Below are positions 33,712-39,430 of a stretch of 64,000 nt of DNA, piece by piece. Below the pieces are notes generated by a model. That model did no database searches. It was given only the letters and a program-made list of their open reading frames with translations, and was not told where the DNA came from. The position numbers and the translations under genes were made by a program. The stretch's first letter is position 1. Each line of letters starts with the position of its first letter. Source of the stretch: Cochleicola gelatinilyticus (lineage in GTDB: Bacteria; Bacteroidota; Bacteroidia; Flavobacteriales; Flavobacteriaceae); NCBI RefSeq assembly GCF_001637325.1, contig NZ_LRXL01000037.1, positions 248,001 through 312,000 on the forward strand, in the 5' to 3' direction.

Positions 33712-35112
33712 ATGTCAAAATATGATGTTGCTGTAATAGGTTCCGGTCCTGGAGGATATGTAGCTGCCATTCGTTGTGCCCAATTGGGAATGAAAACTGC
33801 TATAATAGAAAAATATAATACCTTGGGAGGTACGTGTCTCAATGTTGGATGTATTCCAAGTAAGGCCTTGTTAGATTCTTCTCATCACTACGAAGATGCA
33901 ATCAAGCATTTTGAAGACCATGGGATTGAGATTCCAGGAGAAGTAAAGATCAATTTTAAAAAGATGATCGAACGAAAAGGTGCTGTGGTAGAACAAACCA
34001 CCAAAGGAATCGAATTTCTTATGAATAAAAATAAGATCGATGTTTTTACAGGAGTTGGTGCTTTTAAAGATGCTACTCATATTGAAATTACCGGAGATAA
34101 AAATGAAACCATAGAAGCTGCTAATACCATTATCGCAACTGGAAGTAAGCCGGCAACGCTTCCGTTTATTAAAATTGATAAAGAACGTATTATTACTTCT
34201 ACCGAAGCATTAAGCTTAAAAGAGATTCCGAAGCACATGATCGTGATTGGAGGTGGTGTTATTGGTCTTGAATTAGGGCAAGTATACCGTCGTTTGGGAG
34301 CTGAAGTTTCTGTAATAGAATATATGGATCGAATTATCCCTACAATGGATAGTGCGCAAAGTAAAGAGCTTACTAAAGTGATGAAAAAACAAGGAGTGAA
34401 GTTTTATCTTTCCCATAAAGTTTCAGCCGTTTCGAAAAAGAAGAATGAAATTACCGTAACTGCAACCGATAAAAAAGACAAAGAGGTAACCTTTACAGGA
34501 GATTATTGTTTGGTTTCTGTAGGACGTCGTGCTTTCACTGAAGGATTAAAACCTGAAAATGCCGGAGTAAAAATAACCGAGCGTGGACTCGTGGAAACAA
34601 ATGAGCACCTACAGACTAATGTGAAAAACATTTATGCTATTGGAGATGTTGTGAAAGGAGCAATGTTAGCACACAAGGCTTCAGAAGAGGGAACATTGGT
34701 TGCTGAAATTCTAGCGGGACAGAAACCCCATATCGATTATAATTTAATTCCGGGAGTAGTATACACGTGGCCTGAGGTTGCTTCCGTAGGGAAAACAGAA
34801 GAGCAATTGAAAGAAGCTAAAGTTTCATATAATTCTGGTCAGTTTCCAATGCGAGCTTTAGGAAGAAGTCGTGCTAGTGGTGATACCGACGGATTTGTAA
34901 AAATTCTTTCCGATAAAGAAACCGATGAGGTTCTAGGGGTACATATGGTAGGCGCACGAGTTGCCGATCTTATTGCTGAAGCGGTTGTTGCTATGGAGTT
35001 TAGAGCCAGCGCTGAAGATATTGCTAGAATGAGTCATGCACACCCAACGTATGCTGAAGCTGTTAAAGAAGCTGCACTTGCTGCAACGGGAGATCGTGCA
35101 CTACATGTATAA
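33712..35112 (+). CDS. lpdA: Dihydrolipoyl dehydrogenase (E3)
   Basis: FAD/NAD-dependent E3 subunit of the pyruvate, 2-oxoglutarate and branched-chain 2-oxoacid dehydrogenase complexes and the glycine cleavage system. The 466-aa protein has the FAD motif GSGPGG (residues 10-15), the redox disulfide Cys42/Cys47 in GGTCLNVGCIPSK, the NAD motif VIGGGVIGLELG and the C-terminal catalytic HAHPTYAEAVKEA. The long form with a full dimerisation domain is complete. It is a single-gene unit with its own promoter and a strong terminator. Confidence 0.97.
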   Translation: MSKYDVAVIGSGPGGYVAAIRCAQLGMKTAIIEKYNTLGGTCLNVGCIPSKALLDSSHHYEDAIKHFEDHGIEIPGEVKINFKKMIERKGAVVEQTTKGIEFLMNKNKIDVFTGVGAFKDATHIEITGDKNETIEAANTIIATGSKPATLPFIKIDKERIITSTEALSLKEIPKHMIVIGGGVIGLELGQVYRRLGAEVSVIEYMDRIIPTMDSAQSKELTKVMKKQGVKFYLSHKVSAVSKKKNEITVTATDKKDKEVTFTGDYCLVSVGRRAFTEGLKPENAGVKITERGLVETNEHLQTNVKNIYAIGDVVKGAMLAHKASEEGTLVAEILAGQKPHIDYNLIPGVVYTWPEVASVGKTEEQLKEAKVSYNSGQFPMRALGRSRASGDTDGFVKILSDKETDEVLGVHMVGARVADLIAEAVVAMEFRASAEDIARMSHAHPTYAEAVKEAALAATGDRALHV

Positions 35113-35137: not shown

Positions 35138-35176
35138 TAAAAAAGCTGGTTGAAATTTTTCAACCAGCTTTTTTTA
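35138..35176. terminator. Bidirectional terminator between lpdA and the fibre-like protein gene
   Basis: Perfect stem AAAAAGCTGGTTGAAA / TCAACCAGCTTTTT around a short T-rich loop. A and T runs on both sides serve lpdA (plus) and the convergent gene ending at 35193 (minus). Confidence 0.85.
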
Positions 35177-35192: not shown

Positions 35193-36383
35193 TTAAAAAT
35201 CGATTACCGAAAAAGTAAATTCTAGGTCAATATCTTCTTTGGCAGTACCACCATTATCACTATCTCCTATATTCACTCGAAAGCCAGTAGTTTGTCGGTT
35301 TAAATAGGTGATACCTGGGTCGTCATAATCACAGTCTCCAGCATCATTACAATCGGCCGATGCTAAATTAATAATATAGTTATTACTACTTCTTGGACTT
35401 GAAAAAGTTACTTGGTAATTTCCTTTGTTTATTCTTGATACAGTGGCTCCATAAATTTTTAAGGCATTTCCATTACCTTCCACCAATCCTGCAGCAACTG
35501 TAATAGGTCCCATAGGTGCATTGCTGATATTTCCGTGAGAGTCACTATATAAGGCACCACTACCTAAATTACGAACTCGAATATTTCCTGCTACATCCAA
35601 TATTTCGGTAGGTTCTTGTGTTCCAATTCCCATCTTTCCATCATTCTTTACTACCACCCTTGTTAGCTGACTTGTAGAACCTGCAGGTGTTGTATTTAAG
35701 ACAAATTTTGAAGGGGCACTTCCTGGTGTTGCCAGTCCATCGATATAAAAACGAAACCCTCCTGTTTCTTTAATCCCTGTTCCGTCATGGGTTTTAACGA
35801 TGATAGACCCTATTTCTTGATTGGCGTTTGTAAATGCAGCGGGTGCGTCTAATGTTCCTCCAGTATTGAATAAAATTATGTTTGGAGGATTTGTATTTGC
35901 ACTAGTAATTTGAAAGTCGTTATCTCCTGGCCCTTTAAATTCAAAACGTTCTACAGGTGTATCGGTACCAATTCCAACTTTCCCGGAATCTGTAATAATA
36001 ACATCTGTACCGCTTAATTTTGCTTGAGAAGCATAGATAAGAGGTTCTCCAGTTGAACTGAAACCATCTTTCCACTCTTCAGCACCAACCGAGATCCAAC
36101 GATTTTCTGGAGCATGCCAGTAATGAAATCCTGTATTAAAAGTTCCCACAGGAGCTGTTAAGTATACTAACATTCCATTTTGATCATGTCCTGGATCTGT
36201 TTCTGGAAATTTAGAAACTCTTGGGATTAAGATTCCATCATTGCTTGCAGGATTTGAAGGGTCGGAGGCTTGAATATCCAACATGCTCATTGGAGATGTA
36301 TTTCCAATACCAACTTGAGCTTTCGTTAATGTGGTAAAAAATAATGTAAAAATAGCTAGAATAGCAAGAGTAACATTTTTCAT
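35193..36383 (-). CDS. Secreted fibre-like protein, paralog A of a tandem pair
   Basis: A 396-aa protein of unknown function with a signal peptide (MKNVTLAILAIFTLFFTTLTKAQ). Residues about 24-250 (starting VGIGNTSPMSMLDIQ, with FHYWHAPENRWISVGAEEWKDG and two VGIGT/MGIGT segments) are nearly identical to the neighbouring paralog. The last 145 residues differ completely and include a beta-rich end (ATVSRINKGNYQVTFSSPRS ... DLEFTFSVIDF) resembling fibre head domains. No enzyme motif and no T9SS sorting domain. Own -7 element and a conserved upstream inverted repeat. Confidence 0.78.
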   Translation of the reverse strand: MKNVTLAILAIFTLFFTTLTKAQVGIGNTSPMSMLDIQASDPSNPASNDGILIPRVSKFPETDPGHDQNGMLVYLTAPVGTFNTGFHYWHAPENRWISVGAEEWKDGFSSTGEPLIYASQAKLSGTDVIITDSGKVGIGTDTPVERFEFKGPGDNDFQITSANTNPPNIILFNTGGTLDAPAAFTNANQEIGSIIVKTHDGTGIKETGGFRFYIDGLATPGSAPSKFVLNTTPAGSTSQLTRVVVKNDGKMGIGTQEPTEILDVAGNIRVRNLGSGALYSDSHGNISNAPMGPITVAAGLVEGNGNALKIYGATVSRINKGNYQVTFSSPRSSNNYIINLASADCNDAGDCDYDDPGITYLNRQTTGFRVNIGDSDNGGTAKEDIDLEFTFSVIDF

Positions 36384-36412
36384 AAGTAGGTGTTAATTTG
36401 GGTTAACAATAG

Positions 36413-36420
36413 CAAAGGTA
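36413..36420 (-). promoter_or_regulatory. -7 promoter element of fibre-like paralog A
   Basis: TACCTTTG on the minus strand, a perfect TAnnTTTG match, 29 bases before the start codon; the matching element of paralog B is at nearly the same distance. Confidence 0.6.
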
Positions 36421-36511
36421 ATTTTTATTCCTATATCAAATCAAACCTTAACACTACGAAAGACTATATATTCGTTTAAGTGGATTTTTAAATCGATGAA
36501 ATGCATAATTA

Positions 36512-36530
36512 TGTAATACTTTGATTACAA
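36512..36530. promoter_or_regulatory. Inverted repeat upstream of fibre-like paralog A
   Basis: TGTAAT and ATTACA arms around ACTTTG, 129 bases upstream of the start. The same arrangement occurs 130 bases upstream of paralog B. Candidate regulator site; role inferred. Confidence 0.45.
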
Positions 36531-36596
36531 ATACTTTGAAAAAATCACATTTTAATCGTTTAAAGTATGTTTTTGCCGTTTAATTAAAACGCCTTT

Positions 36597-37784
36597 TTAC
36601 TTTATTATTTTAATATTCCAGTTTCGAGTGCTTGGAGAAATTGCGGAAGAGGATTGTCTAATATTAGAAACACGAACGGTAACTGTATTGGGGGCGCTTA
36701 CATAACAATTCCAAACTAAATAATCTTCCATTCCACCGTGTGGTGAACAATTACAAGCATCTCCAACAACAGCATTACTAACAGCTACGTCTACATCAGC
36801 AAAACGTCCTTTGTTAATCGGTGGAAAACTTAAGGGGATTGTTACCGAAGTCCCTTTCATAACAACTTCGCGTAAGGTTCCAGCAGTTAGATAAAAGTTA
36901 TTACCGTCGTATTCAATGGTACCTGCTTCTGGGGTGTTTAATACGGGGCCTGCCGTAAATTTTAAAGGAGCATTATTGGTAGTTCCCCCTTTTAACTGCA
37001 GCACGGCTTTTGGATCTTCAACACCAATACCTGTATTTCCGTTACTACGAATGGTCATTCGTGTGCGTTGCTGTGTAGATCCTTCTGGAGTTGTATTTAC
37101 AACAAATTTTGAAGGCGTACTACCTGGAGAAGCCAATCCATCTATATAAAAACGAAATCCACCTGGTTCTCTAATTCCAGCGCCATCATGTGTTTTTACA
37201 ATTACCGATCCTATTTCCTGATTCGCATTCGTAAAAGCGGTAGGGGCATCAAGCGTACCTCCGGTATTATATAAAATTACGTTTGGAGGATTGGTATTGG
37301 CACTTGTTATTTGAAAATCGTTATCTCCAGGGCCTTTAAATTCGAAACGTTCTACGGGAGTATCGGTTCCAATTCCTACTTTTCCTGAATCTGTAATAAT
37401 AATGTCTGTTCCACTTAACTTTGCTTGAGATGCATAGATAAGAGGTTCTCCTGTACTGCTAAATCCGTCTTTCCACTCTTCGGCTCCTACAGAGATCCAT
37501 CTGCTTTCTGGAGCATGCCAGTAGTGAAATCCCACATTAAAAGTTCCAACAGGGGCTGTTAAAAACACCATCATTCCGTTTTGGTCATGTCCTGGATTTA
37601 CGGCTGGAAATTTAGAAATACGTGGAATTAAAATCCCGTCATTATGAGACGGATCTGAAGGGTTGGATGATTGGATGTCTAACATGCTCATTGGTGATGT
37701 ATTTCCAATACCCACCTGGGCTTTTATTTGTACAGAACCTAGAAGAGTGACAACTGCTATAAGAGCAAACGCAATAGTTTTCAT
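36597..37784 (-). CDS. Secreted fibre-like protein, paralog B of a tandem pair
   Basis: A 395-aa protein of unknown function with a signal peptide (MKTIAFALIAVVTLLGSVQIKAQ). Residues about 24-250 match paralog A nearly residue for residue, although many codons differ at synonymous positions. The C-terminal part (about 260-395) is unrelated to that of A. It contains a GTIEYDGNNFYLT segment, common in fibre proteins, and a cysteine-containing end (GDACNCSPHGG, VWNCYVS). No sorting domain or catalytic motif. It has its own promoter, 213 bases upstream of nothing but paralog A's region, so the pair are separate units. Confidence 0.78.
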   Translation of the reverse strand: MKTIAFALIAVVTLLGSVQIKAQVGIGNTSPMSMLDIQSSNPSDPSHNDGILIPRISKFPAVNPGHDQNGMMVFLTAPVGTFNVGFHYWHAPESRWISVGAEEWKDGFSSTGEPLIYASQAKLSGTDIIITDSGKVGIGTDTPVERFEFKGPGDNDFQITSANTNPPNVILYNTGGTLDAPTAFTNANQEIGSVIVKTHDGAGIREPGGFRFYIDGLASPGSTPSKFVVNTTPEGSTQQRTRMTIRSNGNTGIGVEDPKAVLQLKGGTTNNAPLKFTAGPVLNTPEAGTIEYDGNNFYLTAGTLREVVMKGTSVTIPLSFPPINKGRFADVDVAVSNAVVGDACNCSPHGGMEDYLVWNCYVSAPNTVTVRVSNIRQSSSAISPSTRNWNIKIIK

Positions 37785-37814
37785 AAGTAGAAGTTAATTT
37801 GGGTTTAACTGCGG

Positions 37815-38090: not shown

Positions 38091-38125
38091 AGATGGTTTT
38101 TAGTCGCTACATTCCAATACTATTT

Positions 38126-39430
38126 ATGAGAGTCGTCAATACCTATAAGATACCCTTTTCTAGTCAGCTTACTGCTAAGATTCTTCTTTGGGCACAACAG
38201 TTTGAAGAAGTAGTTTGGCTCGATTCGAATGCCTATCAACAATCACATGGTACGTATTTGGCAATACTTGCTGTGGATGCACTTACAGCAATTCAGACCG
38301 ATCATTTTGGAGCTTTCGATGCGTTGAATGAATATCAAACTAAGACGAACGATTGGTTGTTTGGATATCTCACATACGATCTTAAAAATAGCGTAGAACA
38401 ATTACACTCTAAAAATCACGATGGGCTTCAGTTTCCCGATCTCTATTTTTTTCAACCCAAAAAAGTGTTTTTGTTTTCAGAAAATGAAGTCGAATTACAC
38501 TATCTAAATATGGTTGATGACGAACTGGAAACCGACTGGAATGAAATCCTTTCAACCCAATTGAAAAACCCTTCAGAAGAATTTAATAGTGAAACACCAG
38601 TAAAAATTAAGGTAAGAACTTCGAAAGATAGTTATTTTGAGAAGGTCACTACCATGCTTCAGCATATTGAACGAGGTGATATTTATGAAGCAAATTTTTG
38701 TCAAGAATTTTATTCCGAAGCAACAAAAATCAACCCATTACGAGTCTTTCAGCATTTAAATAGTATTTCCCACCCGCCCTTTGCTGCTTTTCTTAAAATT
38801 AAAGATAGATACGCACTTTCGGCATCACCAGAGCGATACCTGCAAAGAAAAGGGGATGTAGTTATTTCTCAGCCTATAAAAGGAACTGCACCGAGATTGA
38901 ACGATCCCGGTGAAGATGCTGCGATGGTACAGCAACTAATTTCCGACCCTAAAGAGCGCAGTGAAAATATTATGATCACCGATTTAGTACGAAACGATTT
39001 GTCTCGAATTGCAAAGAAAGGAAGCGTTGAGGTAGAGGAACTTTGTAAAATTTATTCTTTTGAACAGGTGCATCAAATGATTTCTACTATAACATGCAAA
39101 GTAGATCCGGAAACTTCGTCGGTTTCAATTTTAAAAAATACATTTCCTATGGGAAGCATGACAGGAGCCCCTAAGGTTTCTGCTATGAAAATAATTGAAG
39201 AGTTAGAAGACGCCAAACGCGGTTTGTATAGTGGAGCAGTAGGATATTTTGCTCCAAATGGGGATTTCGACTTTAATGTAATTATAAGAAGTATTCTTTA
39301 TAATGCCGACCAAGATTATGTTAGTTATTCGGTAGGAAGCGCTATTACGGCAAAATCGATTCCAGAAAATGAATATGAAGAATGTTTACTGAAAGCAAAA
39401 GCGATGCGGGAAGCTTTGATGCATAAATAA
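38126..39430 (+). CDS. pabB: Aminodeoxychorismate synthase component I (PabB-like)
   Basis: Chorismate-binding enzyme that makes 4-amino-4-deoxychorismate for folate synthesis, with a glutamine amidotransferase encoded elsewhere. The 434-aa protein has the chorismate-binding core with SQPIKGTAPR, DLVRNDLSRIAKKGSVEVEEL and the signature GSMTGAPKVSAMKIIEELE. The N-terminal half is shorter than that of anthranilate synthase (TrpE), which favours PabB; no trp genes are nearby. The frame is open from 38093, but the promoter position favours the MRVVNTYKI start. Transcribed alone or just ahead of tilS (112 bases). Confidence 0.87.
   Translation: MRVVNTYKIPFSSQLTAKILLWAQQFEEVVWLDSNAYQQSHGTYLAILAVDALTAIQTDHFGAFDALNEYQTKTNDWLFGYLTYDLKNSVEQLHSKNHDGLQFPDLYFFQPKKVFLFSENEVELHYLNMVDDELETDWNEILSTQLKNPSEEFNSETPVKIKVRTSKDSYFEKVTTMLQHIERGDIYEANFCQEFYSEATKINPLRVFQHLNSISHPPFAAFLKIKDRYALSASPERYLQRKGDVVISQPIKGTAPRLNDPGEDAAMVQQLISDPKERSENIMITDLVRNDLSRIAKKGSVEVEELCKIYSFEQVHQMISTITCKVDPETSSVSILKNTFPMGSMTGAPKVSAMKIIEELEDAKRGLYSGAVGYFAPNGDFDFNVIIRSILYNADQDYVSYSVGSAITAKSIPENEYEECLLKAKAMREALMHK

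Follow-up and report, generated by a model that had tools for sequence, protein, structure and literature searches.

The window analysed here, 64,000 nucleotides of contig NZ_LRXL01000037.1 (positions 248,001 to 312,000; assembly GCF_001637325.1) from Cochleicola gelatinilyticus, carries two neighbouring genes, here called A and B, for putative secreted fibres. Both are open reading frames (ORFs) on the minus strand, lying in tandem between pabB and lpdA in a 3.39 Mb Flavobacteriaceae genome. Gene A (positions 35,193–36,383 of the window; 396 amino acids) is proximal to lpdA and gene B (36,597–37,784; 395 amino acids) follows towards pabB, just as a preliminary description of the window had placed its pair of tandem secreted paralogs. 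The flanking plus-strand genes, which we take from their sequences to be lpdA (dihydrolipoyl dehydrogenase, 33,712–35,112) and pabB (aminodeoxychorismate/anthranilate synthase component I-like, 38,093–39,430), are the conserved boundaries of what is called the slot below.

Each protein starts with a signal peptide of residues 1–22 (36,318–36,383 in A, 37,719–37,784 in B), which ends in KA and is followed in both translations directly by QVGIG, with Q as residue 23. This junction fits the Q-rule for Bacteroidetes signal peptides (PMC5837995, PMC10653852). The N-terminal parts, or heads, comprise residues 23–245 (35,649–36,317 in A, 37,050–37,718 in B). The C-terminal parts, or tails, comprise residues 246–396 in A (35,196–35,648) and 246–395 in B (36,600–37,049), with tip domains of approximately 105 and 85 residues, respectively, according to matches in family genomes and structural models. 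At the junction of head and tail the translations contain a capping-loop-like motif, MGIGTQEPTEIL in A (35,598–35,633) and TGIGVEDPKAVL in B (36,999–37,034), which resembles the consensus of mosaic adhesive trimer (MAT) fibres (PMC10769870). Pfam and NCBIfam scans of A and B returned no family at the curated cut-offs, two weak Pfam matches below cut-off, and no C-terminal domain of the type IX secretion system.

The two heads are 86.7% identical over residues 21–245 (BLASTP E 4e-164 for the two proteins), and the DNA is 80% identical across a 300-nt repeat. Segment by segment the protein identity ranges from 62% to 98%, and the signal peptides are more divergent than the head, so that "almost the same" for the first 250 or so residues was slightly strong. 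Similarity stops near residues 245–262. The last 145 or so residues are unrelated, as had been proposed: profiles of tail A (31 rows) and tail B (23 rows) gave an hhalign probability of 0.14%, which is no match. Divergence computed along the head alignment agrees with the view that the differences are mainly synonymous and that the shared part is old and strongly selected. Over 228 codons the proportion of synonymous differences (pS) is 0.62 and that of non-synonymous differences (pN) 0.09, giving a Jukes-Cantor ratio of the two divergences (dN/dS) of approximately 0.07; synonymous change is near saturation, replacement change is low, and the head is under strong constraint. Across seven segments of the head up to residue 225 pS stays between 0.53 and 0.79 with no low-pS tract. 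The two copies therefore do not stem from a recent duplication, and homogenisation of the heads by gene conversion in recent times is unlikely; older conversion is possible.

In the named genome collection the head was found at 19 loci. A search of 397 family genomes (237 genera) at E ≤ 1e-40 found it in 19 genomes of 14 genera. Wherever the fetched stretch extends far enough, lpdA and/or pabB usually adjoin the head gene; loci that are too short or have no match to one or both of these genes include L012, L014, L016, L022 and L024. Of the 19 genomes with a head, 16 carry tail B, which no other of the 397 genomes has, and the remaining three have tail C (G086), tail D (G189) or an interrupted tail A gene (G201). 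Tail A has matches in 44 of the 397 genomes and 35 of the 237 genera. Outside this head it is mostly the C-terminus of unrelated proteins (L052–L077), some of them collagen-like with GxT/GxQ repeats and some of them open frames of 2000–3200 amino acids, which makes tail A a mobile tip; its IGDxDNG / DDPGIxY pattern is kept across 31 rows from diverse fibre contexts.

Tail types also differ within genera. Among the seven genomes of genus g54, two have B only, one has B plus a headless tail A gene, one B plus an interrupted headless gene and one head+A; two have no match, one of these being 55% complete. Genus g76 has one genome with B, one with A and nine without a match. The source genome and Halomarinibacterium retain both A and B, and in each the tail A gene is the one nearer lpdA. 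In Halomarinibacterium the slot holds three fibre genes (L006 1208–5119, plus strand), two with a more distant head type and tail B and one with tail A. Within the source genome, a domain of approximately 80–100 residues after the signal peptide is common to some ten ORFs (12 matches). Besides A and B, about eight ORFs there (L003, L004, L005, L111, L114–L117) combine the N-terminal QVGIG..LD domain with different C-terminal regions, and L004 and L005 have a common end of their own.

A tree of the heads was built from 37 rows (29 with tail B, six with tail A, one with C, one with D), excluding same-genome duplicates (L026, L030–L033, L035, L036, L043–L047) and the distant paralogs of the source genome (L003–L005). 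Tail A needs six changes on this tree, at least five of them forced by well-supported branches. With shuffled tail labels the mean is 5.7 changes, so the clustering of tail types on this tree does not exceed chance. The heads of genes A and B are sisters (100/100), the head of Patiriisocius marinistellae (L017, tail A) pairs with that of P. marinus (L022, tail B; 97/87), and the Marixanthomonas-like L009 (tail A) stands beside L011, L015 and L034 (tail B). The last two groupings are also found in the lpdA tree, and head distances track lpdA distances (Mantel r 0.68, 0/5000, 21 rows). In the tail A tree, unlike the head tree, the tail of gene A is sister to the L017 tail (99/94). Approximately unbiased (AU) tests on the head data rejected a grouping of the gene A head with that of L017 (p 1.8e-43), of the six A heads in a single clade (p 1.1e-7) and of the four heads with tails of clade A2 (p 0.0015), p values that are optimistic because these groupings were chosen with the tree in view. 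When the DNA of L009 is aligned with that of L015, or L017 with L022, identity drops where the head ends and recovers at the stop codon and on the lpdA side; L010 and L028 give a similar, more diverged pattern. Heads follow the host lineage, and tail type changes repeatedly in the pabB-lpdA slot. With unrelated tails on orthologous heads in one slot and different tails within genera, tail exchange is well supported by these comparisons. Fixed tails, with no exchange and no homologs bearing other tails, were looked for across species and not found.

Gene A itself is a mosaic. Compared with gene B and the tail A gene of L017, it has 60 B-like and 10 L017-like informative sites up to residue 217, followed by 2 and 9, respectively, in residues 218–258, and 1 of 10,000 shuffles was as extreme. 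The switch zone, residues 217–244 (35,652–35,735, minus strand), lies some 10–40 residues ahead of the point where the tails turn unrelated. It seems, then, that the tip carries the last stretch of shaft with its capping loop along, although part of the signal could come from rates that vary close to the tip. A possible source of tips occupies this slot in related genera. There, beside a gene with head and tail B, a secreted headless tail A gene of approximately 150–170 amino acids is found on the plus strand in L011 (5255–5794) and L019 (5189–5779), and in L103 one that is broken by a frame change. The products of the L011 and L019 genes consist of a signal peptide, a single VG(I/V)NTT repeat that leads into LDVNG, and tail A. 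The two genes lie between B and lpdA, which is the place of gene A in the source genome, and their tails belong to the same clade, A1 (100/96). A headless gene is a plausible tip donor; the reverse, that it is the beheaded product of a complete gene, is possible.

The same trees could also arise if head+A and head+B stood in tandem in the ancestor, the heads were homogenised within each genome and copies were later lost, so that tails never moved between genomes. The arrangement in the source genome and in Halomarinibacterium, with tail A on the lpdA side in both, fits such a history. So do the capping loop GIGTQEP and the stretch LDVAGN, common to the source and L017 tails and unlike the headless genes, so that head+A may predate both; and a mosaic gene A is what a converted head is expected to look like. 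Set against this are the missing low-pS tract between the two heads and the two tail A clades, A1 and A2, each of which is scattered over the lpdA tree, so that losses would have to be many. Genus g54, moreover, shows four states among its five head-bearing genomes. We regard concerted evolution with loss as a serious possibility that falls short of being probable; either the tail may have moved or the head may have been converted. A shufflon or other invertible exchange was considered and set aside, as no convincing pair of inverted repeats was seen at the swap borders, with no further search made; a perfect 17-nt inverted repeat between the stop codons of gene A and lpdA (35,139–35,174) is terminator-like.

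Sequence and fold comparisons both identify the head as a phage-like beta-helix fibre, most closely related among solved structures to the MAT fibres of Bdellovibrio. In phmmer searches structure 8oml was matched by both A (E 1.7e-8) and B (E 3.4e-7), 8on4 also by both and 8ol4 by A; all three are Bdellovibrio fibres. For the model of gene B (mean predicted local distance difference test score, pLDDT, 78.6; predicted template modelling score, pTM, 0.47) the first eight of 449 Foldseek matches all belong to Bdellovibrio fibres (Bd1334, Bd2439 and Bd2133; E 8.4e-10 to 8.1e-7), followed by the L-shaped tail fibre of phage T5 and by Bd3182. VIA-align of this model gave Z 12.8 over 219 residues (root-mean-square deviation, rmsd, 8.6) with Bd1334 and Z 8.7 over 96 residues (rmsd 2.2) with the T5 fibre, the similarity lying in the beta-helix part of the head. 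Together the phmmer matches and the top eight Foldseek matches indicate that the shafts of A and B are homologous to MAT shafts.

The tails, modelled as the preliminary description had suggested, are predicted to be two unrelated beta-sandwich tips. The model of tail A (pLDDT 80.7, pTM 0.69) matched the end of the phiAB6 tailspike (Z 8.4, rmsd 3.4, 92 residues), discoidins, SLL-2 and Helix agglutinins (Z 6.1–6.7; 5.2–6.7 with BclA included) and, in a viral model library, 66 entries at E ≤ 0.001, marine phage tail fibres among them. Tail B matched the end of a Klebsiella phage depolymerase (Z 8.1), R-pyocin fibre heads (Z 6.0–6.2) and Helix agglutinins (Z 5.2–5.4). Matches to the H-type lectin fold (Z 6.1–6.3 for tail A, 5.2–5.4 for tail B) are tied with other beta-sandwiches, and the Pfam scans gave no H-type lectin match in either tail. 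As Z-scores of 5–8 are common among unrelated sandwiches, only the fold class is claimed: at these middling scores both tails look like small beta-sandwich tips of the kind found at phage tailspike ends and in H-type lectins. No conclusion is drawn from families missing from the fold searches.

The tips might also be without a ligand. Any stable trimeric beta-sandwich might serve as a folding or trimerisation cap, and tail exchange would then be nearly neutral. The same fold class stands at the C-terminal ends of phage tailspikes, with HK620 and Sf6 among the matches, and the sugar site of these two tailspikes lies elsewhere than at the C-terminal end. The NS74 tips of MAT fibres fold independently of the shaft (PMC10769870). 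Against the cap reading, the IGDxDNG / DDPGIxY pattern of tail A is conserved seemingly more than a generic cap needs, and the H-type lectins and discoidins that were matched bind sugars; caps without a ligand seem to us an unlikely explanation. The earlier comparison of the tail swap with diversification of receptor-binding or adhesion fibres is accordingly retained in two strengths, since the exchange is well supported and the binding function is suggested by fold and sequence relatives.

Among known systems, the MAT fibres are the nearest. They are described as having a conserved mounting end and a diversified recognition end, and Bd2133 and Bd1334 as having N-termini that are 75% identical and C-termini that are exchanged (PMC10769870). 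A and B resemble them in having a signal peptide, a conserved N-terminal part, a beta-helix shaft with VG-x-x-P-x-x-x-L-like capping loops and a replaceable C-terminal tip. Three capping loops were picked out in A by eye, VGIGNTSPMSML, VGIGTDTPVERF and MGIGTQEPTEIL, and were taken as instances of the MAT motif. Compared with the consensus as printed (V-G-G/N-{pi}-X-X-P-X-X-X-L; PMC10769870), their spacing is one residue off, M replaces V in the third copy, and F replaces L in the second. The MAT repertoire of a genome is echoed by the ten or so source-genome ORFs sharing an N-terminal domain, none of which has S74. Unlike the Bdellovibrio fibres, A and B occur in another phylum, without known predation, as tandem paralogs in one conserved slot; their tips are exchanged across genera, headless tip genes exist, and the tip folds differ from the solved MAT tips. 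A literature search on the slot locus and on MAT-like fibres in Bacteroidota found nothing describing this locus.

Other systems share parts of the design. In Rhs, contact-dependent inhibition (CDI) and other polymorphic systems a conserved N-terminal part is joined to exchanged C-terminal parts, and headless C-terminal parts lie nearby. The conserved head, variable tail and headless tips recall them; unlike there, no toxin, immunity gene or processing domain was seen beside the pair, and what is exchanged resembles a binding tip. H-type lectins (Helix agglutinin), discoidins I and II and R-pyocin fibre heads have the compact beta-sandwich class in common with the tips (Z 5–7), to which, however, they have no significant sequence match.

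With phage fibres and tailspikes (the T5 L-shaped fibre, the tailspike ends of phiAB6, Pam1 and HK620, marine phage tail fibres) A and B have the shaft fold, the capping loops and the likeness of the tips in common, and they might be seen as what is left of a tail-fibre module from a prophage or tailocin. The PHROG tail-fibre profiles phrog_9942 and phrog_18345 match the shaft, and 65 records of Flavobacterium (F. columnare) phages hold 33% identical relatives of tail A. In phage V156 this relative stands alone, as an annotated hypothetical protein (ASD52783.1, L102:5956–6399). A scan of viral contigs with the gene B protein gave four loci, in which the family match lies within an EAGxxEYDG stretch and is followed by another tip, and a scan with tail A gave no relative. 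Unlike phage fibres, both proteins have their own signal peptides; lpdA and pabB flank the genes in the source genome and in most loci reaching that far, with no adjoining phage genes; the heads follow the host tree; and tblastn found neither the head nor tail B in any phage record. A prophage remnant is, on this evidence, highly improbable.

Upstream of both genes lies a short leader hairpin, delimited by an upstream motif and pairing analysis, with the loop CCCAAA in A (36,391–36,408, minus strand) and ACCCAAA in B (37,792–37,810, minus strand); in each case CCCAAA is 19 nt ahead of the start codon. The motif CCC[AC]AA occurs within 45 nt upstream of the start in 27 of 38 family members and in 2 of the 43 ORFs of at least 150 amino acids in the window, namely A and B. 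It is present in most first-position family members across genera, and among the 38 upstream regions was not found ahead of second tandem copies or headless genes. Arm pairing was assessed on 25 of the 27 motif rows (near-duplicates L015 and L029 were left out). The arms of the 22 distinct sequences pair above shuffled arms (90 vs 64.5, 0/5000), and the two arms covary, as in GATAA/TTATC, GTTAA/TTAAC and GAAG/CTTC. Under the simple rule used, pairing is slight in several rows, among them L009, L010, L013, L021 and L023. A hairpin model, A6, was built from seven selected rows including gene B and not gene A, and its pair counts lean toward structure because the rows were chosen for a 7-nt loop. 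In a genome-wide search with A6 the two best matches (E 4.7e-4 and 0.10) were the sites of this gene pair, and the next ones (E 0.115 and up) lie mostly away from starts. The hairpin is nearly private to A and B in the source genome. It folds only weakly (-1.9 to -5.4 kcal/mol), an Rfam scan of the window gave no family match, and it is possibly an RNA element or a DNA operator. One may go further and see the slot as a fixed tip-exchange socket of the Flavobacteriaceae, with vertically inherited mounts that gain receptor-binding tips through recombination close to a capping-loop motif held in common, headless genes acting as donors and also as short fibres, and a private leader hairpin that co-regulates the fibres; this is a tentative idea, which we would sooner doubt than adopt.

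On balance, A and B are probably surface fibres of MAT-like design, with receptor-binding tips that were exchanged by recombination near the boundary of shaft and tip. Behind a Sec signal peptide, the N-terminal domain would hold the fibre at the cell, presumably as a trimer. The beta-helix shaft with its VGIGTxxPxxxL capping loops would carry the replaceable C-terminal beta-sandwich tip, which would bind a surface glycan or protein, and with two copies the cell could present two specificities on a single kind of mount. Tips and shafts would have recombined near the last capping loop within the pabB-lpdA slot, with the headless tip gene that related genera have there as a plausible donor. Several points weigh against this. 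The homogenisation history set out above could yield the same trees. Tail B distances track those of the head (r 0.63), so tail B may be a stable partner of the head. A and B have approximately 395 amino acids as compared to approximately 1000 in MAT fibres, and the conserved beta-rich domain that all MAT fibres have directly behind the signal peptide has approximately 130 residues, against 80–100 for its possible counterpart in the source genome; given size and N-terminal domain, membership of the MAT family is not claimed. No S74 domain was found in the source genome. The models are monomers, the global superposition of the gene B model on the top eight MAT matches is poor (template modelling, TM, score 0.17–0.29 by query, rmsd 14–20 Å), and the tip Z-scores fall in the range that is common by the tool's own account.

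The pair is real, old, constrained in its head and repeatedly re-tipped across genera, and chimeric fibres of MAT-like or phage-like kind are already known. Chimeric MAT fibres come from a predatory bacterium, with tips described as exchanged between paralogs (PMC10769870); here the same logic would apply in marine flavobacteria. One locus can be read across genera, with exchange events, breakpoints and a possible tip donor visible, and the way in which bacterial fibres change what they bind may thus become testable with natural alleles.

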